Shown in pieces: positions 1,652-22,610 of a stretch of 38,250 nucleotides of DNA. The stretch is taken from positions 1 through 38,250 of the IMG/VR virus record IMGVR_UViG_3300020204_000162, one strand, 5' to 3'. The notes under the pieces were generated by a model. It worked only from the letters and a program-made list of their open reading frames with translations, searched no databases and had not been told where the DNA came from. The DNA is from a virus. The position numbers were made by a program, and so were the translations under genes. How positions within the stretch are numbered: position 1 is the stretch's first letter; every line of letters begins with the position of its first letter.

Positions 1652-2029
1652 TTAACCAACATCATAATATTTACGAAGGCCTTCTGCAATATCTTCATAT
1701 GCAGCACTTAAACGTTGTTGAAGTTGACTCATTTCTTTTGCTGTTGCTTCGAATACTTTGTATGATTCATTAAGGCCTTTCATATGACGATTGATAGTCA
1801 TTTTATCAAACCAGCCTTCATCTTGTAAAGCAATGTTTTGTGCTTTTTCTACAATATCTCGTACTCGTTCGGTAAGTTCTTGCAAATTACCTTTTCCGTA
1901 AACTGATTCACCCATAGCTGAAAAATTCTTTACAGCTTCCATGAATTGTTGTTTTTCTTCGCGAGATAATTTTAATTGCTCTTCGCCACCGTTAAGTGTT
2001 TCTAAAATATATGCCAAATTGCTTTTCAT
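1652..2029 (-). CDS. Unknown helical head-region protein, 125 aa
   Basis: No family is recognised. The sequence is almost wholly helical with heptad-like spacing (for example about residues 85-120, KVFEATAKEMSQLQQRL), and has no Cys. The N-terminus MKSNLAYILE|T contains an ILE site compatible with prohead-protease cleavage. The start ATG overlaps the protease stop codon (TAATG, position 2029), so translation is probably coupled to that of the prohead protease. Position between gp21-like protease and the scaffold suggests a prohead core or assembly-factor role comparable to the small T4 core proteins (gp67/gp68). That is inference from position only. Confidence 0.62.
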   Translation of the reverse strand: MKSNLAYILETLNGGEEQLKLSREEKQQFMEAVKNFSAMGESVYGKGNLQELTERVRDIVEKAQNIALQDEGWFDKMTINRHMKGLNESYKVFEATAKEMSQLQQRLSAAYEDIAEGLRKYYDVG

Positions 2030-2661
2030 TATAGTATCCTACATTTCCCATCTTCACATAATATTGATGTGATGATATTATTTATTTTATCGTATTTACT
2101 TTGGTTTGATTGTTTGTTAACTGATTCATTCATACTAACAGGACGCATAAAAGCCCCATGAGTAGAAGGATTAGATACGAAATCCCAACATATTAATTCA
2201 AAATCTTCTTGAACTTCAACCGTGCCTTCACTTCGTAATTCTTTAACTGAGCCTAATCCTCGAGAAGAAATTCCTAATGTAATTCCTGCTTTAAATAATT
2301 CTTTTAAAATTTTACCCGAGGGTGTATCTAAAACTTGAACTGCACCCATTAAATTGTCACCGTTCCACCAAATTTTTAAAATATTGTGTGAAACATTGTT
2401 TAAGTTAACAATTGATGATTCTGGATGATCTAGTTCACCTAATGCTCTGTGTTGATCGATATATTCTTTTTGGTAACGTACACATTCTCTTTGTAGAATT
2501 TGTTTTGGATATACGCGGCCGTTTTGATTCTTGGCGCCTGCACGTTGCAAAACACCTTGAACTACAAAACCGCCCGGAACGCCATATGCGGCGCCTGATG
2601 ACTCTTTTAAAGAACCAATCGGTTTAAATGGCATATATTCTACAATTAATCCTTTTGACAT
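2029..2661 (-). CDS. 21: Prohead core protease, gp21-like (S77 family)
   Basis: This is the serine protease that matures T4-like proheads by cleaving scaffold, capsid and internal proteins after (L/I)xE. At 210 aa it is close to T4 gp21. Visible features are the N-terminal fold with GVLQRAGAKNQNGRVYP (about 37-52), the LGELDHPES segment with candidate catalytic His79, SHNI with a second His (92), and the GISSRG loop with candidate nucleophile Ser132/133, followed by the GLGSV stretch. The last 25 residues are Asn/Ser/Lys-rich and may be a self-cleaved tail. A GGAG ribosome site (about 2668-2671) lies just upstream. It is the first of a run of overlapping genes leading to bS21, consistent with head assembly. 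Confidence 0.93.
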   Translation of the reverse strand: MSKGLIVEYMPFKPIGSLKESSGAAYGVPGGFVVQGVLQRAGAKNQNGRVYPKQILQRECVRYQKEYIDQHRALGELDHPESSIVNLNNVSHNILKIWWNGDNLMGAVQVLDTPSGKILKELFKAGITLGISSRGLGSVKELRSEGTVEVQEDFELICWDFVSNPSTHGAFMRPVSMNESVNKQSNQSKYDKINNIITSILCEDGKCRIL

Positions 2662-6112: not shown

Positions 6113-7690
6113 TTACAGAAGCCAGGTCAAATTCTCATTGTAATGACCATTGTTCCATTCCCAGCCGTCAGTATTTCCTGCTGCTTTGCCGGTAAAAATA
6201 ACTTGTTGTGAAGATTTTTGAAATTGACCTAATGTCTTTTTATGTAGTTCAATTCCTTGTTGGCGTAATTTTAAAGATGTATCTCGCAGCCAAAGGCCAA
6301 TACAAAATGACATTACTAAGTCATCGTTATAGCCATTTTGTGCTTGAGCTTTTCCATTCAACCAAACAAATACAAATAATTCTTGAATCAAACGTTTGCT
6401 TCGTATTACTGGAGTTTTTTCTCGCATATACATTTCAAGAGCTGAAATCATTAATGGACGTGTTCTAGATGTTGTTGATACACCAGGAACCATTTGGCTC
6501 TTATCTTTCATATCATAACCTTTTTTAAGTTGAACATCTACATCAACATATCCGTCATCTTTATATGTATAGAATAAATTTTCATAACTTCGATCTAATG
6601 CAGGCTGAATTGCAGCCCAACCAATATTTGCATTTTCTATTGCTAGCAATGCATTATTCCACTCTGTTGCAACTGACACTAACATGTTTCCAAAATCTTT
6701 AGGAGGAAGTTTGCCTTTATATTCCGCAACTTGCGCAACGTCTTGTACATCAATAACATGAAATGTTGACCAGTCACCACCATCACCTCGTGCAACGTCA
6801 GCTACTACTATATAATCTTTTTCATAGTTAGGATATTCCCATATCCAATATGCATTATCAAAACCACGTTTTTCTACAGGATCAGAACATTTTAATTCAT
6901 AATCCATTAATATACCGCCATCTATTACAGTATGCCCGGAACTAATAAAGTCACAATCACATTCTTGTGCAGCACTTCGTTCACCCAATAAACGAGTTTG
7001 TTCATCTCGCCAATCTTGATCGCGGTCTGGATGTACTGTCCAATGTAGTTTGATTGTATGGAATCCATTAATTTCTTGTTCCGCTTCTGACCATACTGAG
7101 TGAAACCAATTACCAATCCCATTGGGTGTAGATAATACAATTGCACCACCACCTGTTGATAATGTTGCTTGTGATGCTACCCAAATTTCTTCAATATTAC
7201 GGATGAATGCAGCCTCATCTATAATAAGCAATGAAAGTGCTTCTGAACGCGCGCCGGTTGTTGCTGATGATACTGCTTTAATTTGAGAACCATTTTTAAA
7301 TTTGAGTGAAAGTTTGTTGTCAGCTTCAATATTACCTTTTAACCAACTAGGTAAATTGTCGTGCATGACACGTACTTTTGTTACTAAGTTTTTTGCTACT
7401 TCTTGTGTTGTTGCAATAACAAGAACGTTAAAATCTTCTTTGAATAGCATTGACCAAAGTGCAAAACCTGCTGATAATGTTGATATACCTAACTGACGAG
7501 ATTTTAATATTACATTGTAACGATTATCTCGCAATTCGGTTAACGAGTCTTCCTGAAATGGATAAAGGTTAAATTTAATTTTACCTTTTTTAGGATGTTG
7601 AATATAACAATATTGACGCATAAAGAAAACAGGATCTTTAGCACACATTGTGTACTGTTGTTGAATGATCTGTTTTATGTTTTGAGTCAT
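6113..7690 (-). CDS. 17: Terminase large subunit, gp17-like
   Basis: This is the DNA-packaging motor: an N-terminal ATPase pumps DNA into the prohead through the portal and a C-terminal RNase H-fold nuclease cuts the concatemer. Residues 61-71 carry the Walker A variant ILKSRQLGIST, as in gp17-type proteins (SRQxGxT). The Walker B/catalytic Glu is LLIIDEAAF (154-162) and the coupling motif VLSTPNG follows. The nuclease acidic cluster is visible in VADVARGDGGDWS, in IENANIGW, and in the late NGYNDDLVM. Length (525 aa) is slightly below T4 gp17. Its ATG is 1 nt past the preceding stop, so it is last in a block shared with the two small membrane proteins. No gp16 small subunit was recognised nearby. 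Confidence 0.96.
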   Translation of the reverse strand: MTQNIKQIIQQQYTMCAKDPVFFMRQYCYIQHPKKGKIKFNLYPFQEDSLTELRDNRYNVILKSRQLGISTLSAGFALWSMLFKEDFNVLVIATTQEVAKNLVTKVRVMHDNLPSWLKGNIEADNKLSLKFKNGSQIKAVSSATTGARSEALSLLIIDEAAFIRNIEEIWVASQATLSTGGGAIVLSTPNGIGNWFHSVWSEAEQEINGFHTIKLHWTVHPDRDQDWRDEQTRLLGERSAAQECDCDFISSGHTVIDGGILMDYELKCSDPVEKRGFDNAYWIWEYPNYEKDYIVVADVARGDGGDWSTFHVIDVQDVAQVAEYKGKLPPKDFGNMLVSVATEWNNALLAIENANIGWAAIQPALDRSYENLFYTYKDDGYVDVDVQLKKGYDMKDKSQMVPGVSTTSRTRPLMISALEMYMREKTPVIRSKRLIQELFVFVWLNGKAQAQNGYNDDLVMSFCIGLWLRDTSLKLRQQGIELHKKTLGQFQKSSQQVIFTGKAAGNTDGWEWNNGHYNENLTWLL

Positions 7691-8091: not shown

Positions 8092-8430
8092 TTAAGCTTT
8101 CTTTGCAGGCCGGCCTCTGCGTGTTTGTTTTAAAATATTTTCTTTTACTTCTTCTTCAGGTTTTTCTTCTACTACTAAATTTTCTTTTTGCGTTTCCAAT
8201 TCAGTAATTTCTTGTTTTACTTCAACAATTTCTTGTTTTACAGCTTTACGTTTCTTTTTAATTTCTTTTACTTCAGTTTCAATGCGATCAACATGTTGCT
8301 TTTTTTCTGCAACTGCTTTATCAATTTTTTCAATTTGATTTGATTTCTTTTTACTAGTAAATAGAAAAAATGCAACAATAGCTCCAACTATTCCTGCGAT
8401 TGCTAATACAATGTTTTTAATTGTTTTCAT
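8092..8430 (-). CDS. Membrane-anchored coiled-coil protein, 112 aa
   Basis: One N-terminal transmembrane helix (about 7-26, IVLAIAGIVGAIVAFFLFTS) is followed by KKK and a long charged coiled coil (about 30-90, Lys/Glu heptads), ending in a basic RRGRPAKKA tail that contains an AT-hook-like GRP core. The topology is uncertain: an inner-membrane spanin would place the coil in the periplasm, but the KKK after the membrane helix suggests it faces the cytoplasm. The gene overlaps the previous one by 14 nt and is 1 nt from the signal-peptide gene. A lysis accessory or a membrane-tethered DNA or terminase contact are both possible. No family is recognised. Confidence 0.6.
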   Translation of the reverse strand: MKTIKNIVLAIAGIVGAIVAFFLFTSKKKSNQIEKIDKAVAEKKQHVDRIETEVKEIKKKRKAVKQEIVEVKQEITELETQKENLVVEEKPEEEVKENILKQTRRGRPAKKA

Positions 8431-9067
8431 TTGTTTGTGTTACTCCATTTAGTTTATTTAAAAAATTTTCTTTAAATTTATCAAATTCTTTTTGAATTGT
8501 TTCTTCAAATTCATCGATTGACATTTTTGCAGACCATGTTTCTGTATCTCCTTCGCCATTTGTTACAAATTGAGTTGCTTGTGTATATGCTTTCTTTAAC
8601 ATTTCAACATCGCGTTCTGCTTCTTGCAACCAAGCTAACGCATTTTCTCGTACTTTGTTTCGTGCATATTCATCAAATGTACCATCTTTGCGCATTTCGT
8701 GTTCCATTTCAATTACACAATCAAAACACATACCATGTATTCCGCGCATCTTTTGATCTAATGGATGTGCTCCAGAACATGTGCATATATCTTTTCTGCA
8801 ATTAGGAAATGAACGTATTTCATCTCGAACTGATTGTAAAATATTTGAATTTTTTGTTTTTCGAAGTCGGAAACCATCTCTTTGCTCTACAATATATGTA
8901 ACGCCAGATGTATCTGTTTCTTCCCAAGTATCGCCAATATTATGACGTTCAGATTTTTTTGCAGCATCGAGTGCATCTGAAAATCCTACTGTTGTTTTTG
9001 TTTGAAACTTATGGGTACCATCTAACATTTGATTGATGGCTTTAATGTTTTGTAACTTTTTTGACAT
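8417..9067 (-). CDS. Unknown protein with Cys/His cluster, 216 aa
   Basis: No named family is recognised. The first 80 residues are polar with a strand-rich patch (DTSGVTYIVEQRDGFRLRK). Residues about 88-116 contain CRKDICTCSGAHP and HGMCFDC, a set of five Cys plus His that resembles a zinc-binding knuckle. The second half is a long helix pair rich in Glu/Lys (EEFEETIQKE-type). It lies between the low-complexity 279 aa protein and the small membrane proteins in the terminase block. A zinc-dependent structural or nucleic-acid contact is possible, and so is a diverged packaging accessory such as a small terminase, for which there is no direct sequence support. Confidence 0.62.
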   Translation of the reverse strand: MSKKLQNIKAINQMLDGTHKFQTKTTVGFSDALDAAKKSERHNIGDTWEETDTSGVTYIVEQRDGFRLRKTKNSNILQSVRDEIRSFPNCRKDICTCSGAHPLDQKMRGIHGMCFDCVIEMEHEMRKDGTFDEYARNKVRENALAWLQEAERDVEMLKKAYTQATQFVTNGEGDTETWSAKMSIDEFEETIQKEFDKFKENFLNKLNGVTQTNENN

Positions 9068-9950: not shown

Positions 9951-11972
9951 TCAACGTGCGTATTTCAATACTCCTAGTATCTGATTGACTGGAGCGAATG
10001 CGCCGGTTAATTTATATGTATTGCCGCCGTATGTAAATACTATGCCCTCTGAAGGTACAATTGCGTCAAAACCTCCGATGCGTTCTATACGACGTAATTC
10101 TTGTTCTAATTTTGAAATAGTTTCAGGATTTGGATTATTTTGTAAATCTTTAACTAATTCTGCCATTTCTTGTTTAATTTCTTGTACTGATTTAGATGGA
10201 TTTGCAGCTAAGAAATTTGTAGCATTTTTTAATACTACTGCACCTAATCTTAAAAAGATAGTTTCAAATGGTTCCATGTTTTGTTTGTAATATTGTTTGA
10301 ATTCTTTTTTATCAAATTCTAACGCCCAATTTAAAAAATCTGCATTATCAATTTGTTTTTTAAGTGCCGTTAAATTTGCAGATTTATCAAAGAATCCCCA
10401 ACGATATACTAATGCATCTAATATTTGTTCTGGAATTTCATATTCAAATTGTTTCGCCTTAGATAATATTACATCTCTCCACCATGCTCTATGATATTCA
10501 GTTACGAGATCTGTTTCTCGCAATCCGTAACGTTTACGTAATTGATCTACTTCGTTAAAGAATGCAGCCTGTTGATCTTCAAAGTCACTTATCCGGCCCA
10601 TTTTGATTTGTTGTGGAGGAATAAATGAAAATGTTTTTTGAAGATGTGCGTTTGCATCTTGTATAATACGTTGTACGGTTGCTCCGCCCGTTAAATCAGT
10701 TTCAACAATGTTTGCATTTTCATCATATTCAACTAAATTATGAAATTGTAATACTGCAACTTCGTATGAAATAACATTTTTAGTTGCAGGATAAATAATT
10801 TCCATGTTAGCAAATACTCGTCCATTTTTGAAAATTTGATTTAAAGTTTCTGGATTAACTTTACTAAATGCGTTGGATAAATCTTCTGCTGCTCCCCCGA
10901 ATGCATCTGATATAGCCCCGCGATTATCAAATTTTGCTTGAATTTCTTGCACCGACATTGGATTAATTACATTACCTTTATTACGTGCAAAACCAATTTG
11001 GCCGTCTTTCCAAGTAACTTGAATATTTTGACCATCAGTTTTTTCAGTAACCGCTGCTTCGATGTCTAATCGTCCTTCTAATGCTCTAGAAATAATTTCT
11101 TTGATATCATTAAAAGTTAATCCATGATCATCATATGGATGTGCCATATGTCCTGCGGCGCCGCCTTCGGTAATAAGTGATTCAATTAATTCGGCACCCA
11201 TTACTGTTTTAGGAAATTGATCGAAATCATATACAAACGATTCATCATCTTGTCGATCTAAAAATTTATTTAGTTTGTTGATTTTCTTTTTATGACGTTG
11301 TGTTTCAGCTTTATTCATTGTGGCTGCAAATACTTCGTCAACTTCTTCTTGTAATTCGTTAGTCCACCAATCTTTAGTAAATAACGCTTCTTGCATACCT
11401 GTTAAAATTTGCCAAGCATTTTTAACTTCCGCTTCATCGTTATTTGGGTATGACGCACGAAATGTTTTATAATCTCGGTCTGCTAATGATTGCCGTACTA
11501 CAGTTGCAGAAATAGGTGTTGTGCTATTTTTATATGTTAATGGATCAACATCGATACTTAATTCAGTTGCATCAATACCAGCTGGCATTTTACGACTATT
11601 TTTATCTCCAATTGTAATATATTTATCTACATTTGGAACAAATTCTTTTGCACGTACATAATCATCTCCTTTTGTAGATGCAGCCATAGCATATCGGCCC
11701 GTTGCATCTTGTGGTAGTGCAAATAAATATTCATATGCAGCTGTAATAGGAGAATTAAATTCAGTTGGTTGAATTTCTACGTTAGGATTTGAATTTAAAA
11801 TATTGAATAATTTAATAGTTTTATCTCTGGTAATTCCTTGTCGTTCTTTTGGTCCAATTAAAAGAATTACGCGATCTACTTGAGGATGCTCAGCATAGCG
11901 TTGTGCTAATGCTAAATGTGCTCCTGTTAATGGCTTGAATCCGCCGGGAAATAAAACTGTTATTTTATTCAT
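9951..11972 (-). CDS. Nucleotidyltransferase fused to a ligase-like domain, 673 aa
   Basis: Two enzyme-like domains are joined. Residues 1 to about 170 are a HIGH-superfamily nucleotidyltransferase: FPGGFKPLTGAHLALAQRY gives the GxFxPxTxxH substrate loop (11-19) and ISATVVR (154-160) the ISxTxxR motif, as in NMN/pantetheine/glycerol-3-P nucleotidyltransferases. After a helical linker, residues about 270-673 resemble the ATP-grasp-like core of nucleic-acid ligases: EKTDGQN (310-316, candidate adenylated Lys311 of KxDG), FARNKGN (328-334), VFANMEIIYP (motif III-like), then SEGIVF and KLTG near the C-terminus (motif IV and V-like). A segment SLITEGGAAGHMAHP at the junction contains an ITE|G site. 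Substrates are unknown; RNA ligation, end repair or NAD/nucleotide metabolism are options. The ligase assignment is from motif order and is less certain than the transferase. Confidence 0.72.
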   Translation of the reverse strand: MNKITVLFPGGFKPLTGAHLALAQRYAEHPQVDRVILLIGPKERQGITRDKTIKLFNILNSNPNVEIQPTEFNSPITAAYEYLFALPQDATGRYAMAASTKGDDYVRAKEFVPNVDKYITIGDKNSRKMPAGIDATELSIDVDPLTYKNSTTPISATVVRQSLADRDYKTFRASYPNNDEAEVKNAWQILTGMQEALFTKDWWTNELQEEVDEVFAATMNKAETQRHKKKINKLNKFLDRQDDESFVYDFDQFPKTVMGAELIESLITEGGAAGHMAHPYDDHGLTFNDIKEIISRALEGRLDIEAAVTEKTDGQNIQVTWKDGQIGFARNKGNVINPMSVQEIQAKFDNRGAISDAFGGAAEDLSNAFSKVNPETLNQIFKNGRVFANMEIIYPATKNVISYEVAVLQFHNLVEYDENANIVETDLTGGATVQRIIQDANAHLQKTFSFIPPQQIKMGRISDFEDQQAAFFNEVDQLRKRYGLRETDLVTEYHRAWWRDVILSKAKQFEYEIPEQILDALVYRWGFFDKSANLTALKKQIDNADFLNWALEFDKKEFKQYYKQNMEPFETIFLRLGAVVLKNATNFLAANPSKSVQEIKQEMAELVKDLQNNPNPETISKLEQELRRIERIGGFDAIVPSEGIVFTYGGNTYKLTGAFAPVNQILGVLKYAR

Positions 11973-14706: not shown

Positions 14707-14720
14707 TTTTATATAAATAT
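14707..14720 (-). promoter_or_regulatory. Candidate late promoter, ATATTTAT motif (fibre-like gene)
   Basis: The coding strand reads ATATTTATATAAAA, overlaps the last base of the preceding stop codon and lies 13 nt before the fibre-like ATG. No good Shine-Dalgarno site follows. Confidence 0.5.
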
Positions 14721-17700
14721 TAGGAATGATTGATCTGGCTGAATCCGTTTGTTTTATTTACTTCAATTAAATTATCAACCATATCTCGCATTGAATCAAC
14801 GTGTGAAATGATAATAGAAAAATCAAATTTAATTCTAAAATAATCAAATAAATTTACTACAGAAGAAATATGTTCTGAATCTAATGAACCCCAACCTTCA
14901 TCGATTGCAATAAAGTTAGGACGTGGCAACGCAGATACATTGATAAGTGCGATTCTAATAGCTAATGATGATATAAAACGTTCCATGCCAGATGTTAATT
15001 CCAATGGCCAATAATTATCTTCATCATAAATAATATATCCGTTGATATTTTTACCATCAGTATTTAGAACCATATTAAATTCAACAATTTGATTAAGTAC
15101 ATTGTTTATTTCAGATTCAATTTTAGGAAGAGCTTTTGCAACTAATTCATATGGAATGCCGTTGCGTTGAACTGCTGTTAAATAATATTCATATGCTTTA
15201 TATTCTATTTCTAGTTGTTGATATGCTTCTAAATTTTTAAGTGCAGTGCCTCGATTTGTTTTTGCAACTTCAATTGCACCAAAGAGTGATTTAATTTGCG
15301 ATTGGATTTCTTTTATCTCTTCAGTATAAAATTCAATGTCATCTTTACATATAGCAATCTTTGCATCAATTTTGCGATTATGTTTAATTGCAGTTTCATT
15401 TTTTGTAAATGATTCTTGTCGTTCTAAACATGTTTCTAATTCAGATTCGCGTGTTTGTAATTCTGATTCTAATAATTGAAGTTGAAGTTCTTTACGTTCG
15501 ATATTAGTTGTAGTTGTACGAATAACTTGCGAATGATGAGTTAATTCATCATATTGTACTTGATAAATAGATACTGCTTCAATATCTGTTTCTAAATTAT
15601 CAAAACGATGTTCTAATTCTGTTAATATTGCTCGATCTTGATCAATCGTATCTTGGGCTTCGATTGCATCTTGTACAAAAATGTTAGATGTACAGTATTT
15701 GCAGTTTGGATCATATTCGTGAGCATCGAGATGTTCAATTTTTTGTTGCTTTGCATCAATTACTCCTTGTTGCTCTTTTAGTTGTAAACTAAGAGTTTTA
15801 TGTTTTTCTAATAGTTTTTTATGTATTTCAATATTTTCTTGAATTTCTTGTGGGTTGTAACGAGATTGTATGATAGATTTTTGTTCTGCATTTTGTTGTT
15901 TTAATTCAAAAATTCTTTGTTCCGCAACTTCAATATCAGATTGTAATGTTTCAATTTTATTAGTTAAATCTGTTTCTTGTGCAGTTAAAATATCAATGTC
16001 TGGTCCTTCATATGTTGTAGGCAATTTAGATTCAATAAGATTAACAATATGATTTTGAACATCATTTCTAGCTTCTTGTTGTTTATCTTCTTGCGCTTCT
16101 AAAGAATGAATGGTATCTTGATTGGCTGAAATAATTTCATCTGCCTGTAACATGATTTCAGCAAAATCTGTTTTCTTGTATTCTTTTAAACGCCCGGCTG
16201 TTTCTTTGATTTCATCTGCAGCAAGTTGATAAAGTTGTTCAAATACTGTAATGTCTAAAAATTGTGATAAAAGCTCTTTACGTTCTTTTTGAGACTTTTC
16301 AATGAAGTTATTGTTATCGGCTTGTAAAGAAAATGCCGTTAAAATAAAATCATCATATGTGCCTAAGAAGCGACGAATATTTTTATTTGTTTCACTACGC
16401 TCCTCGCCGTTTAAATTTTCTGAATCAGTATAAAAATCTACATCTACTTTAACGTGAGTTTCTTTCTTTTTATTTTGCGTGCCTAGTCGTTCAATTGTAT
16501 AAATCGTACCATTCATCTCAAAACGAAATACACCTCGGAACCACGCCTTTTTATTATTTAATACTTCATTTGCTTTACCTGTTTTACTACATTTATCAAA
16601 TATAGTATAAGTAATTGCATCAAGTAAAGAAGATTTGCCAGATGTATTTGCAGCAAATAAACCACATACATCTTGTAGATTTTCAAAGTTTAAAATATTG
16701 CCTTCGCCATAACTAAACATGTTATCGAATTCAAAAGATATCGGATGCCATGTTGTATGACGCACTGATTCAACTGCTGGTAGTTTTGAATTAATTGTGC
16801 GATTAATATGTCTAATTGCATCTTGTTCTTGTACAGTTGCTTGTGGAAAGTTGTTGTCAATATATTCCGTTAATAATACGTTTTGATATTCAACATCTCG
16901 AACATTACCTATAGCAATACTAGATGATGCTGAAGTTTCTGTTGAGCCAATTGTTCTTTGTATTGTTATATCTTCTACTGCATATTTCTTGCGAATTGAT
17001 GCAATAAGTTTTTTCATATCTGCTGCACTAGTTCCGTTAAATTTAATACGAATTCTAGGACGTTTCGGCATTTTTGCAGGAGCATTAATAATTGTAGCTC
17101 CTTGTGTTTCAATTGTTACATAACCATATTCATTTTCAATTTCATGAAAGTCTGCAGTTCGTTGATCTAAGTCCCAAACTAGTACGCCATGAATAAGAGC
17201 TTCACCATGATTTTGTTGAATTAACGAGCCTGGGTATGCAATAGTTTTTGCATCATCTAAGAATTGTGCCGGCTTATGAATATCTCCTAACAATGTAATA
17301 TCATGTCCTGCAAATAAATCAACGCCTACATGTTCATTTGAAATTTGATACCCAATATCCGTTTTTGCAGTATTAACAGCACCATGGTGCAATGCAATTT
17401 TATATGCAGCATCAAATTCATTTGCACGAATATATTCTGCAGGTGTTTTATCAACAGCCATATGATTCCACGTAACACCTCCTAATTCAAATAAACCATT
17501 TTCTTTGATAAAATGAATATTAGGATTCTTAATTACATCTAATACCGGGCTTATTGCATCAACACGATGCATATTGTTTAGATTCATATCATGATTACCT
17601 AAAATAACAATTGTAGGAATCGTAAATCCGTTAAAGAAATCAACAAGCATTTGAACTAGTTCCGGAGACATATCTAATTTGCTATGTACAATATCTCCGG

Positions 17701-17869
17701 TAACTACCGCAATACTATTTCTAGTAGAATGAGTTGCAATAAAATCAAACATACGTTGAAATACCTGACGATATTCTCGATGTCGTTTTAATGTACGAAT
17801 ATGTACATCTGAAATATGAAAGATTTTATCTATTTTTTCAACGTGTGTATCTATTTTTCTTATGTCCAT
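14720..17869 (-). CDS. 47-46: SbcD-SbcC (gp47-gp46, Mre11-Rad50-like) fusion, 1049 aa
   Basis: One open frame joins the nuclease and ATPase of the recombination/end-processing complex that T4 encodes as separate genes 47 and 46. The N-terminal calcineurin-like nuclease has HISDVH (18-23), VTGDIVHS (57-63), LGNHD (90-94), ALHHG (159-163) and LGDIHKP (194-200) with the expected metal ligands. Residues about 370-1049 are the SMC-like ATPase: Walker A GLFAANTSGKSS (403-414), long coiled coils on both sides of a zinc hook C723-K-Y-C726, a signature region LTSGMERFISSLAIR, and Walker B FIAIDEGWG with D990/E991. The fused complex would resect DNA ends for recombination-dependent replication. Its start overlaps the primase 3' end by 10 nt, so the two are co-translated. 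Both active sites look intact. Confidence 0.94.
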   Translation of the reverse strand: MDIRKIDTHVEKIDKIFHISDVHIRTLKRHREYRQVFQRMFDFIATHSTRNSIAVVTGDIVHSKLDMSPELVQMLVDFFNGFTIPTIVILGNHDMNLNNMHRVDAISPVLDVIKNPNIHFIKENGLFELGGVTWNHMAVDKTPAEYIRANEFDAAYKIALHHGAVNTAKTDIGYQISNEHVGVDLFAGHDITLLGDIHKPAQFLDDAKTIAYPGSLIQQNHGEALIHGVLVWDLDQRTADFHEIENEYGYVTIETQGATIINAPAKMPKRPRIRIKFNGTSAADMKKLIASIRKKYAVEDITIQRTIGSTETSASSSIAIGNVRDVEYQNVLLTEYIDNNFPQATVQEQDAIRHINRTINSKLPAVESVRHTTWHPISFEFDNMFSYGEGNILNFENLQDVCGLFAANTSGKSSLLDAITYTIFDKCSKTGKANEVLNNKKAWFRGVFRFEMNGTIYTIERLGTQNKKKETHVKVDVDFYTDSENLNGEERSETNKNIRRFLGTYDDFILTAFSLQADNNNFIEKSQKERKELLSQFLDITVFEQLYQLAADEIKETAGRLKEYKKTDFAEIMLQADEIISANQDTIHSLEAQEDKQQEARNDVQNHIVNLIESKLPTTYEGPDIDILTAQETDLTNKIETLQSDIEVAEQRIFELKQQNAEQKSIIQSRYNPQEIQENIEIHKKLLEKHKTLSLQLKEQQGVIDAKQQKIEHLDAHEYDPNCKYCTSNIFVQDAIEAQDTIDQDRAILTELEHRFDNLETDIEAVSIYQVQYDELTHHSQVIRTTTTNIERKELQLQLLESELQTRESELETCLERQESFTKNETAIKHNRKIDAKIAICKDDIEFYTEEIKEIQSQIKSLFGAIEVAKTNRGTALKNLEAYQQLEIEYKAYEYYLTAVQRNGIPYELVAKALPKIESEINNVLNQIVEFNMVLNTDGKNINGYIIYDEDNYWPLELTSGMERFISSLAIRIALINVSALPRPNFIAIDEGWGSLDSEHISSVVNLFDYFRIKFDFSIIISHVDSMRDMVDNLIEVNKTNGFSQINHS

Positions 17870-20288: not shown

Positions 20289-22049
20289 TTATCTTTCTAC
20301 TATTTTAACAAATCGTTCAGGTACGTAAACTAATTGCTTACTTATTTCAGCTTTATACATTTTATATTGAGTTGATGAACCACCTTTGATTTTAGCAGTT
20401 TTTGTACCTAATAACGGATAACCCGTAGTTCTACATTTCAGTGTCGTTGGCTGTTTCGGCCAAGTTAAAACAAATTGAGAACCTTCTAATTCATATATAT
20501 TAGCAGTATTTGATGTAAATACTACGTATTTTTTCTTAGCAGGTGGGTTGGGAGCTGGCTCTGGTGCAGGCGGTTCTTCTGGTCCAGGAATTAAATTATC
20601 ATCAGCGTTTGGTATAAACTTATTGTTAAGTTTTTTTATCGTTGCCGCATCAGTTACTGAAACGATATTATCAAATATAGATACATCTAAATTATAAAGA
20701 TCTTCATTTTCAAATTTAGATACATCTACAACTTTACCCCAATATTTCCCTACAATATCATATACATATAAATTATCATTTAATTTATATACTTTAAGTT
20801 TTTTATTATTTCCATCTATATCATCAACATCAATTTCTAAATCTTTTGGATAAAGTATACCACGTTTATATTCTCCATCTATAAATTGTCCAATTTGTTG
20901 TTTATTTTTATTAAAAACAGTTCCGTTCCAGAGAACATTATCTTTAAATTCTCCATCAAAAATCATACCATTTCCATATGTGCCCCGGCCTGTGATTTTC
21001 TTGAATTCGAAACCTTGTTGACCTGATGATCTAGTATAAACTGTACTTTCAACTTCGCCTTCAAACGTTTTAAATTGATCATCTGTTGCCGAATAATACT
21101 CAACCTCACCTTTATATGGCGCGCCGTTTTTAAATTCTCCATAAAATGCTCCTTCGCGCTTTGTTCTAACCTCACGAATGTTTTTTGTTCCAAATATTGG
21201 CTGAAACGTTAAAGATTCTCCATCTGTAGAAACTGACATTTTTGCTTCGCCTTCAAACCCATTACTATTAACATCACTATGTAATAAGTTATTATTTGTA
21301 TCATATACATCATATTTTCCGGTATCTACGTTAATAGTATTACCATCATCATCAGTAACAGGTACCCCATCATCATCAATAGCAGGTTCCATACGATTTT
21401 TTATTATAACCTCTTTAGAAGCTAAATCTGCCTGTACATCATCTCCTACTACATCTATTTTAATTTTATCAAGTTTTGGTAAATTTAATGTAGTAGATAA
21501 ATTAAATTTTTTACCAGAATCTTGTAGATAAGTAAACCATTTATTTGCTTGATCTAAGTTCATTAATGTAACTGACTGAATCTTATCTATTTGTTGTTCT
21601 GATTGCGCAAAATATGTTGTTTTTTGTAATGCTTGTTTTATTTCTTTAGATAATTGATTAATACCCGTTTTATCTTTATCAATAGCCCAAACATTCCAAA
21701 CTTTTTTATTAGTTTTATCTAAAGCTTGAAAATAAATAAACAACCTTGTTTTAGGATTATATTTTACTGGAAAATATTGTTCTGCTGCTTTTGCAAAAAC
21801 TTGTTTAACAAGTTCATCTAATTCAGAATCTGAATAAGTACCTTTTTTTGTTCTTTTAAAAATAATAGGTAATCCTGTGATAGCTCCGGCAGCTCGAGCT
21901 GCAGAATCTACTTTCGCACCTATTCTCGTATTATATGCTAGTATATATGGAGCTTCCCATTTTTTATCAGCCTCTGACAGTAAAGATGATTCAGTTAATT
22001 GTACTGCGTAATTTTTAATATATTTTCTAATAAGCTGATTTATCATCAT
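20289..22049 (-). CDS. MORN-repeat protein, 586 aa
   Basis: The central part (about residues 295-400) contains MORN-like repeats of the YxGxFxxGxxxGxG type: FYGEFKNGAPYKGEVEY, FEGEVEST, GRGTYGNGMIFDGEF, LWNGTVF and QFIDGEYKRGILYP. MORN modules are short beta-hairpin repeats linked to lipid or protein binding. The N-terminus (MMINQLIRKYIKNYAVQLTE|S...LLSE|A) has (L/I)xE sites that could be prohead-protease cuts, then a domain starting KWEAPYILAYNTRIG that is not recognised. An Asp-rich segment (about 210-240) includes DDDGVPVTDDDGN, possibly calcium binding. The C-terminal 80 residues look like an SH3-type beta barrel after a Pro-rich linker. It is the first of a three-gene block with the M15-like peptidase and endonuclease I. 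Function unknown. Confidence 0.68.
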   Translation of the reverse strand: MMINQLIRKYIKNYAVQLTESSLLSEADKKWEAPYILAYNTRIGAKVDSAARAAGAITGLPIIFKRTKKGTYSDSELDELVKQVFAKAAEQYFPVKYNPKTRLFIYFQALDKTNKKVWNVWAIDKDKTGINQLSKEIKQALQKTTYFAQSEQQIDKIQSVTLMNLDQANKWFTYLQDSGKKFNLSTTLNLPKLDKIKIDVVGDDVQADLASKEVIIKNRMEPAIDDDGVPVTDDDGNTINVDTGKYDVYDTNNNLLHSDVNSNGFEGEAKMSVSTDGESLTFQPIFGTKNIREVRTKREGAFYGEFKNGAPYKGEVEYYSATDDQFKTFEGEVESTVYTRSSGQQGFEFKKITGRGTYGNGMIFDGEFKDNVLWNGTVFNKNKQQIGQFIDGEYKRGILYPKDLEIDVDDIDGNNKKLKVYKLNDNLYVYDIVGKYWGKVVDVSKFENEDLYNLDVSIFDNIVSVTDAATIKKLNNKFIPNADDNLIPGPEEPPAPEPAPNPPAKKKYVVFTSNTANIYELEGSQFVLTWPKQPTTLKCRTTGYPLLGTKTAKIKGGSSTQYKMYKAEISKQLVYVPERFVKIVER

Positions 22050-22073: not shown

Positions 22074-22610
22074 TCACCAATCAACCATTACCATTTTACC
22101 ATTCCACATCATAACGTTATCAGATCTAAAATCTAAATCTAAATCAAATTCCGGAATATTTAATTTTTGAACATCTGATTGCAATGCATTTAAAAAATTA
22201 TCCAACATTGGATCTAAATTATCAGTTTCTTGAGTAAAATCAAAAATAGAAACTTCACCTCCTTCATCTCTAGCAAATGAAGCAAAGTCTTGCATAAACA
22301 TATCAATTGATTTTTTAATACGAACAGGTAATTCAGATGCATTTGCCATTATATACATATTTTTACCATCAACATAATATACCGGAATAAATGTAGTAAA
22401 TTCATTGTATCGATTTACAATAATATCAGCAACTTCATATTCATCTTGTTCTTTTGTAATTTTAAATGTTTTATCTTCACCATCAATTTCATAAACACGA
22501 CCGTTATCTCCAGCTCCAATAAGACGAAACTGGTTGTTACGTATTTTATCCAAACAACGATTTAAATCTTGTTCAGACATTTCTCGAAGAAGTTGTTTTA
22601 ATCGTATCAT
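22074..22610 (-). CDS. Small protein-kinase-like protein with possible capsid-targeting leader, 178 aa
   Basis: Key residues of the kinase/phosphotransferase fold are in order in a very small protein. IGAGDNGRVYEI (31-42) is a Gly-rich loop, TFKITKE (48-54) supplies a candidate ATP-binding Lys50 and nearby Glu residues, MYIMANASE (85-93) looks like a hinge, and LDFRSDNVMM (159-168) is a catalytic loop in which Asp160 and Asn165 have the five-residue spacing of HRDxxxxN. The protein ends at MVDW (175-178), matching the metal-binding Asp of DFG/IDW, so nearly all the C-lobe after it is missing. The His of HRD is replaced by Leu. The leader MIRLKQLLRE|M resembles that of the M15-like protein. 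An AAAGGA site precedes the ATG, 1 nt from the upstream gene. Could be an active minimal kinase or a pseudokinase. Confidence 0.7.
   Translation of the reverse strand: MIRLKQLLREMSEQDLNRCLDKIRNNQFRLIGAGDNGRVYEIDGEDKTFKITKEQDEYEVADIIVNRYNEFTTFIPVYYVDGKNMYIMANASELPVRIKKSIDMFMQDFASFARDEGGEVSIFDFTQETDNLDPMLDNFLNALQSDVQKLNIPEFDLDLDFRSDNVMMWNGKMVMVDW

Follow-up and report, generated by a model that had tools for sequence, protein, structure and literature searches.

We describe a fusion gene in a 38-kb viral window (the whole stretch of DNA analysed, 38,250 nt of an IMG/VR virus record), the product of which joins a HIGH-superfamily adenylyltransferase module to an RNA-ligase-type module across a predicted disordered junction. 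The strongest new result, in our view, is that two different separation devices appear to operate at one and the same junction residue in this family: a putative cleavage site of the prohead-protease type and, in sister phages, the signature of an internal ribosome start. Either device would yield a free ligase beginning GGA; what the family makes seems to be a precursor built of modules, not a single bifunctional enzyme. The fusion is carried beside the terminase gene in hundreds of uncultured T4-like phages and, given these hundreds of IMG/VR relatives, it is not a product of chance.

The fusion gene and its two folds

The window holds some of the clustered late genes of a T4-like phage. An earlier note on this DNA, made from the letters alone, had placed the fusion at 9951–11972; these coordinates are right and the strand is minus, the plus strand of the interval being full of stops. 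The gene sits between that of a fibre-like protein and h279, which is followed by h216 and terminase. Almost every relative that has sequence on its flanks shows the same order: fusion, h216, terminase, portal, two genes at the place of T4 gp67/68 and protease. Portal and baseplate-like genes were read from the window sequence, which also encodes a toprim protein, endonuclease I and a fused Mre11/Rad50-type protein, the latter being a single 1049-aa ORF (14720–17869, minus) with an Mre11-type phosphoesterase and a Rad50-type ATPase (T4 gp47/gp46). A phage-encoded ribosomal protein bS21 (869–1114, minus; PF01165, E 2e-12) is annotated beside the prohead protease in Microcystis phage Mel-JY01, too. 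The features of the gene and its neighbourhood are the following:

2029..2661, minus: prohead protease of the T4 gp21 family, candidate processing enzyme (PF03420 Peptidase_S77, E 3.5e-32)
6113..7690, minus: large terminase, as context (PF03237; synteny)
8417..9067, minus: h216, conserved gene constantly present downstream of the fusion (synteny in almost all relatives whose flanks are available)
9951..11972, minus: fusion ORF P0001, 673 aa (open reading frame; 100% match in its own record; relatives in IMG/VR)
11388..11972, minus: predicted HIGH-superfamily adenylyltransferase domain, residues 1–195, CoaD/NadD/NadM fold (AlphaFold2, fold match, profile)
11916..11945, minus: GGFKPLTGAH, residues 10–19, (H/T)xxH motif with T16 and H19 (alignments)
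11493..11513, minus: ISATVVR, residues 154–160, second HIGH-family motif (SxTxxR), S155 and R160 invariant (alignments)
11187..11387, minus: helical linker, residues 196–262, of low confidence and clade-specific (pLDDT 29–70; missing in distant relatives)
11160..11189, minus: disordered junction LIE|SLITE|GG, residues 262–271, with predicted prohead-protease site(s) (pLDDT about 27; motif)
9954..11150, minus: predicted RNA-ligase-type nucleotidyltransferase domain, residues 275–673 (AlphaFold2; leading folds all RNA ligases)
11031..11042, minus: motif I, KTDG, residues 311–314, with the predicted adenylylated Lys311 (K, D and G invariant, n = 55)
10974..10991, minus: FARNKG, residues 328–333, motif Ia-like, R330 invariant (alignments)
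10794..10808, minus: motif III, NMEII, E391 invariant (alignments)
10083..10592, minus: mostly helical insertion, about residues 461–630, after motif III and before motif IV (model secondary structure)
10035..10052, minus: motif IV, SEGIVF, residues 641–646, with E642 and G643 (alignments)
10002..10016, minus: motif V, YKLTG, residues 653–657, K654 invariant, the second Lys replaced by an invariant T656 (alignments)

The two folds are predicted with high confidence. Residues 1–262 were modelled with AlphaFold2, using alignments of relatives, at pLDDT 80.6, the model being weak past residue 195. The best structural match was to CoaD (5h16; VIA Z 13.4), with NadD and NadM at about 12, and a profile match to CoaD was obtained at E 9e-6. 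With a Rossmann-like adenylyltransferase fold and both signature motifs present, in common with CoaD, NadD and NadM, the N-terminal module is identified in sequence and model as a HIGH-superfamily adenylyltransferase; it differs from these enzymes in being joined to a ligase-type module, not to Nudix or a kinase. The fold scores of the three lie within about 1 Z of one another, a tie among the candidate substrates NMN, NaMN and phosphopantetheine; a HIGH transferase of this kind would point to chemistry of the NAD or CoA type. In many marine members, Gly takes the place of the first His/Thr in the HIGH motif.

Residues 262–673, modelled in the same way, reached pLDDT 87.8 and pTM 0.85. The leading fold matches are all RNA ligases: Naegleria NgrRnl (Z 9.2), the fungal tRNA ligase Trl1 (8.6) and T4 Rnl1 (8.0), with T4 Rnl2 in the same group; these Z values are middling, yet the motifs agree with them. 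Across 26 aligned homologues, K311, D313, G314, R330, E391, E642, G643 and K654 do not vary, and the K/D/G of motif I, the Glu of motif III, the EG of motif IV and the first Lys of motif V are invariant in 55 sequences, down to 38% identity. Model and motifs thus identify an RNA-ligase-type covalent nucleotidyltransferase, predicted to adenylylate Lys311. The earlier note had claimed a HIGH-superfamily nucleotidyltransferase and a ligase-like domain in one chain and had made this depend on a ligase fold in the C-terminal half and on a conserved Lys311: both folds look complete in the models, the second being an RNA-ligase fold, K311 does not vary in either homologue set, and every HIGH and ligase motif it named was found at the residue assigned to it.

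Plain Pfam, PHROG, NCBIfam and PDB sequence searches with the window protein returned nothing significant for the ligase half, hence the need for alignments and models. The window protein has no Pfam RNA_ligase (PF09414) match at gathering score; 26 of 55 relatives match this family at E up to 0.1, the best at 8e-4. When the ligase profile was compared with the single T4 Rnl2 sequence (hhalign), KTDG was aligned with Rnl2 KIHG, at a score that is not significant. The fold and motifs I, Ia-like, III and IV are common to the window ligase and to Rnl1, Rnl2, NgrRnl and Trl1 (PF09414), whereas the helical insertion of about 170 residues, the missing second lysine of motif V and the missing OB or C-terminal domain set it apart. 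Where RNA ligases have KxK in motif V, the family has KLT, with Thr invariant at the second position (n = 55). Given this Thr, the insertion and the missing OB or C-terminal domain, strand sealing by the window ligase is not assured and should not be assumed.

The junction between the modules

The T4 gp21 prohead protease cuts after L/I-x-E (PMC9026906), and a gp21-family protease gene is present in the window (PF03420). The ligase module starts with GGxxGHMxHP, and the residue preceding it is E in 182 out of 236 sequences, 181 of which have L or I two residues before that E. In a first sequence set, E|GG occurred in 135 out of 159, all 135 with L or I at P3. All 35 distinct junctions of the window clade have [LI]xE|GG ahead of the ligase half, where the background would be about 1% per position; P3 is always L/I, P1 always E and P1′ always G, and the neighbouring residues vary. 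The density of [LI]xE in the rest of the chain is three times that within the two enzyme domains. By inspection, the same signature, [IL]xE|[AGSV], was found at an independent junction, DDGP(P/A), that stands before a different module, in all those listed except L107. The capsid propeptides of the same phages end in LI(S/D)E|A or in LVKE|(A/S), and a VRRIF..VQPM segment follows directly, and T4 gp23 has LTE|A at the corresponding capsid site.

In 47 sequences (43 distinct), M replaces the junction E. The Lys-Glu codons preceding it are AAG GAG in 40 of the 43; other Lys-Glu pairs in the same ORFs, serving as control, use AAGGAG in 1 out of 244 instances. One further M-type sequence, in which Lys-Glu became Arg-Ser, has retained AGGAG. 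Such a codon bias (AAGGAG...ATG) is what a ribosome-binding site followed by a start in the same frame would leave, and the M-type state implies at least four switches on the ligase tree. The exceptions are six sequences with LxC|GG (Cys for E/M before GG within RQLL(T/V)CGG, as in L088, L092, L095 and L100) and the jumbo-phage protein LR756508, which lacks the motif.

As a sequence pattern, then, the two modules are joined by a disordered stretch that closes with [LI]xE|GG; in sister phages, an internal ribosome start appears to decouple them instead. The modules are predicted, with moderate confidence, to be separated after synthesis. E|GG could be kept for another reason. Intein, bacteriocin-leader and end-capping readings of the GG junction were dropped as unsupported; an end-capping reaction, envisaged in the earlier note, has found no evidence in its favour.

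That note had also raised the idea that the halves could act as one coupled enzyme. In such a bifunctional enzyme, the product or substrate of the HIGH transferase would be passed to the ligase domain, coupling NAD or adenylate chemistry to RNA ends, and the linker would be a tether. Linkage is indeed the rule, for the HIGH domain is in the same chain in 147 out of 155 complete ligase-bearing ORFs (it is a separate gene nearby in two), and an analogous pair is fused, in the opposite order, in the cyanophage metaG-MbCM1. We consider a single coupled enzyme improbable nonetheless: physical linkage appears dispensable, since ligase and HIGH transferase are split into adjacent genes in LR756500 and are distant, separate genes in L219, since internal starts would free the ligase, and since other modules or, in L067, a zinc-ribbon-like insert placed exactly at the junction come between the two. 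The split gene pair, the [LI]xE|GG junction and the internal ribosome start together argue for two separately released enzymes.

Relatives, partner modules and the cyanophage pair

Close relatives of the fusion were found at 80 or more IMG/VR loci. Among 50,697 phage records, the ligase half is matched by three only (Mel-JY01, LR756508 and LR756500), and Lak phages match the N-terminal half only. Scanning 84,980 genomes for cellular homologues returned seven MAG contigs; the hosts named for these mutually disagree, so no host was deduced. The Mel-JY01 protein WWT39297.1, a “cytidylyltransferase like protein”, has the same two domains in the same order and genomic slot and an II-A-E|GG junction; it differs from the window fusion in its sequence (33% identity), in a Gly for the first Thr of the HIGH motif and in an N-terminal tag-like peptide. 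Between its bS21 and capsid genes, Mel-JY01 carries a gene (L081:22429-23595) whose product has no Pfam match and resembles, by eye, an ADP-ribosyltransferase (YRAV...YVSTTL...ESEIILP).

The distant relatives are 640–1907 aa long, and the RNA ligase module is always last in the ORFs examined. Upstream of it, they carry a HIGH transferase, with a significant CTP_transf_like match in 28 of 46 regions, and a P-loop kinase in 12; CCA-adding (E 4e-51), Nudix, HD, Zn-protease-like and ParB modules occur once or twice each (Nudix once), and there are PNK-like PHROG matches. With LR756508 as query, no further ParB-type fusions were found. At L154:1450-5061, a PF05618 pepsin/zinc-protease-like domain and, by eye, a Pol-beta-like nucleotidyltransferase (phrog_36119) lie between the HIGH and ligase modules. 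L056:5001-6874 is a frame-broken copy of the fusion in which a deletion splits the N-terminal transferase and the ligase half is open; L135:8936-14010 is a rearranged locus or a mis-assembly, with the ligase start (motif I) and its remainder in different ORFs.

The pairing itself, which had seemed without precedent from the letters of the window, turned out to have a widespread analogue in T4-like aquatic phages: a KxDG protein and a HIGH transferase occur in one place in 287 phage records. In cyanophages, the DUF6267 protein (PF19782, phrog_455, T4-GC_71) adjoins a cytidyltransferase (T4-GC_190), and the two are fused in metaG-MbCM1 (L261:3495-5681, where the label of ribonucleotide reductase subunit is apparently an annotation error). 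In Pelagibacter phage HTVC008M, the homologous modules are encoded by separate genes next to one another: a DUF6267 KxDG protein, a KOW-like protein, the kinase and a HIGH transferase. Like the window fusion, the cyanophage pair combines a KxDG / EG / K protein with a HIGH transferase, either as neighbours or in one chain; it differs from the fusion in the reversed order when fused and in a relationship to the ligase that is only suggestive. PF19782 has no match in the window protein and a whole-profile comparison of DUF6267 with the ligase (hhalign) was not significant; in the N-terminal part, the profile–profile score was reached by 1 in 200 column shuffles, suggestive of homology over that part. 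Our literature search found no paper on DUF6267 or on its pairing with the cytidyltransferase.

Possible head packaging and function

As in T4-type internal head proteins, an L/I-x-E site of the gp21 type and a gp21-family protease are both present in the window phage, and LxE sites and N-terminal tags like those of T4 internal head proteins with a capsid targeting sequence (PMC9026906) occur in relatives of the fusion. Tags similar to the capsid targeting sequence of T4 are present on L084 and L219, both standalone ligases, and on L070, a relative from the window clade (MGFYNYSQFVSE in L219, MKSILQEFKQHLTE in L070), and MNKLTEWLVKPFLTE stands ahead of varied modules in relatives. A short N-terminal tag ending in [LI]xE was found at 31 of 40 distinct N-termini of distant members. 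The same kind of N-terminus occurs in control proteins at 0/15 (portal), 5/52 (h216), 8/40 (h132) and 2/7 (fibre), and is also frequent in terminase (16/34) and in the genes at the gp67/68 position (21/22); few other proteins of the same loci were found to share the tag. In purified S-SM1 virions, others have detected the cyanophage cytidyltransferase T4-GC190 (PMC3037559), the syn9 homologue of which starts MKKFSAFLSE|A. The window protein starts MNKITVLFPGG, with no N-terminal capsid targeting tag; we regard its own packaging in the head as a weakly supported possibility.

We propose that the product of the fusion gene is a late enzyme precursor with two modules, made by a T4-like aquatic phage, and that the phage's own gp21-type protease would cut it at E269|G270 in the prohead. 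Adenylyltransferase and ligase would then work as two distinct chains, which may be packaged and injected along with the genome. More tentatively, the ligase module might seal RNA ends, for instance those of tRNAs cut by host defence nucleases, the kinase, CCA-adding and other modules of related phages might work together with it, and the adenylyltransferase might make or restore an NAD-type cofactor. That kinase, CCA-adding and RNA-ligase modules occur in one family suggests a role in repairing RNA or tRNA, which we put forward with low confidence. The earlier note had linked nucleotide or NAD chemistry to end joining: RNA end repair is plausible, and a single coupled enzyme is unsupported. 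Against the preferred reading count the missing tag, the LxC|GG and LR756508 exceptions and the terminase control, as well as the rarity of CCA-adding and Nudix modules, the lost second lysine of motif V and the Gly in the HIGH motif of many marine members. Taken whole (separately released enzymes, possibly head-packaged and probably serving RNA repair), it seems to us about evenly balanced between right and wrong. A bolder form, in which a polyprotein-like RNA-repair kit (kinase, HIGH adenylyltransferase, CCA-adding enzyme and RNA ligase), widespread in aquatic T4-like phages, is cut into its parts within the head by the protease of capsid maturation, or else decoupled through an internal ribosome start, is delivered with the genome and acts from the first minutes of infection, is tentative and rather unlikely in full.

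The NMNAT/NadD-type fold of the HIGH domain would also suit a counter-defence module that rebuilds NAD after attack by a host NADase, the ligase-like domain being a non-sealing adenylyltransferase acting on a small molecule or protein. The Lys-to-Thr change in motif V and the Nudix module of one relative fit this idea, and phages do carry NAD salvage enzymes (PMC9503650); RNA ligases, though, lead the fold matches for the second module, and its kinase and CCA-adding partners point to RNA, for which reason we give the idea little credence. That these are structural or morphogenetic head proteins merely recalling enzymes, their motifs conserved relics, we regard as very improbable: their constant place beside terminase, portal and protease genes and the listing of the cyanophage counterpart as a virion structural protein (PMC3037559) would fit, but the active-site residues are invariant across very divergent members.

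Both folds, and multi-module injected phage proteins, are already known. The nearest published concepts are polyvalent phage proteins (PMC5512222) and NAD/ADP-ribose systems (PMC9503650), in the accessible text of which the RNA-ligase/HIGH combination is not described. Like the polyvalent proteins as presented there, the fusion family has several enzymatic modules in one chain (two in the window protein; more, including kinase, ParB and others, in relatives), but it is apparently separated by prohead-protease-type sites or internal starts, not by a zincin domain. New as far as searched are the wide RNA-ligase-type and HIGH-transferase family in aquatic T4-like phages, its two apparent means of separating the modules and the similarity of DUF6267 to nucleotidyltransferases.

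A function is thereby proposed for an unannotated protein type that T4-like phages of sea and fresh water carry by the hundreds, and also, given the resemblance, for the DUF6267–cytidyltransferase pair of cyanophages. The results suggest that capsid-maturation proteases can serve as polyprotein processors of delivered enzymes, and they make it testable whether phages arrive with ready-made RNA-repair or NAD-restoring enzymes, which, if true, would bear on phage survival of RNA-cutting and NAD-depleting host defences.

Two further proteins of the window may be mentioned. The small protein encoded at 22074–22610 (minus) reads like a kinase/aminoglycoside-phosphotransferase fold (GAGDNGRVYEI...DFRSDNVMMW), its sole Pfam match being a weak one to PrlF_antitoxin. 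The 586-aa protein encoded at 20289–22049 (minus) has MORN-like repeats; its tag-like N-terminus, which ends in QLTE|SSLLSE|AD, recalls a head-targeting peptide.
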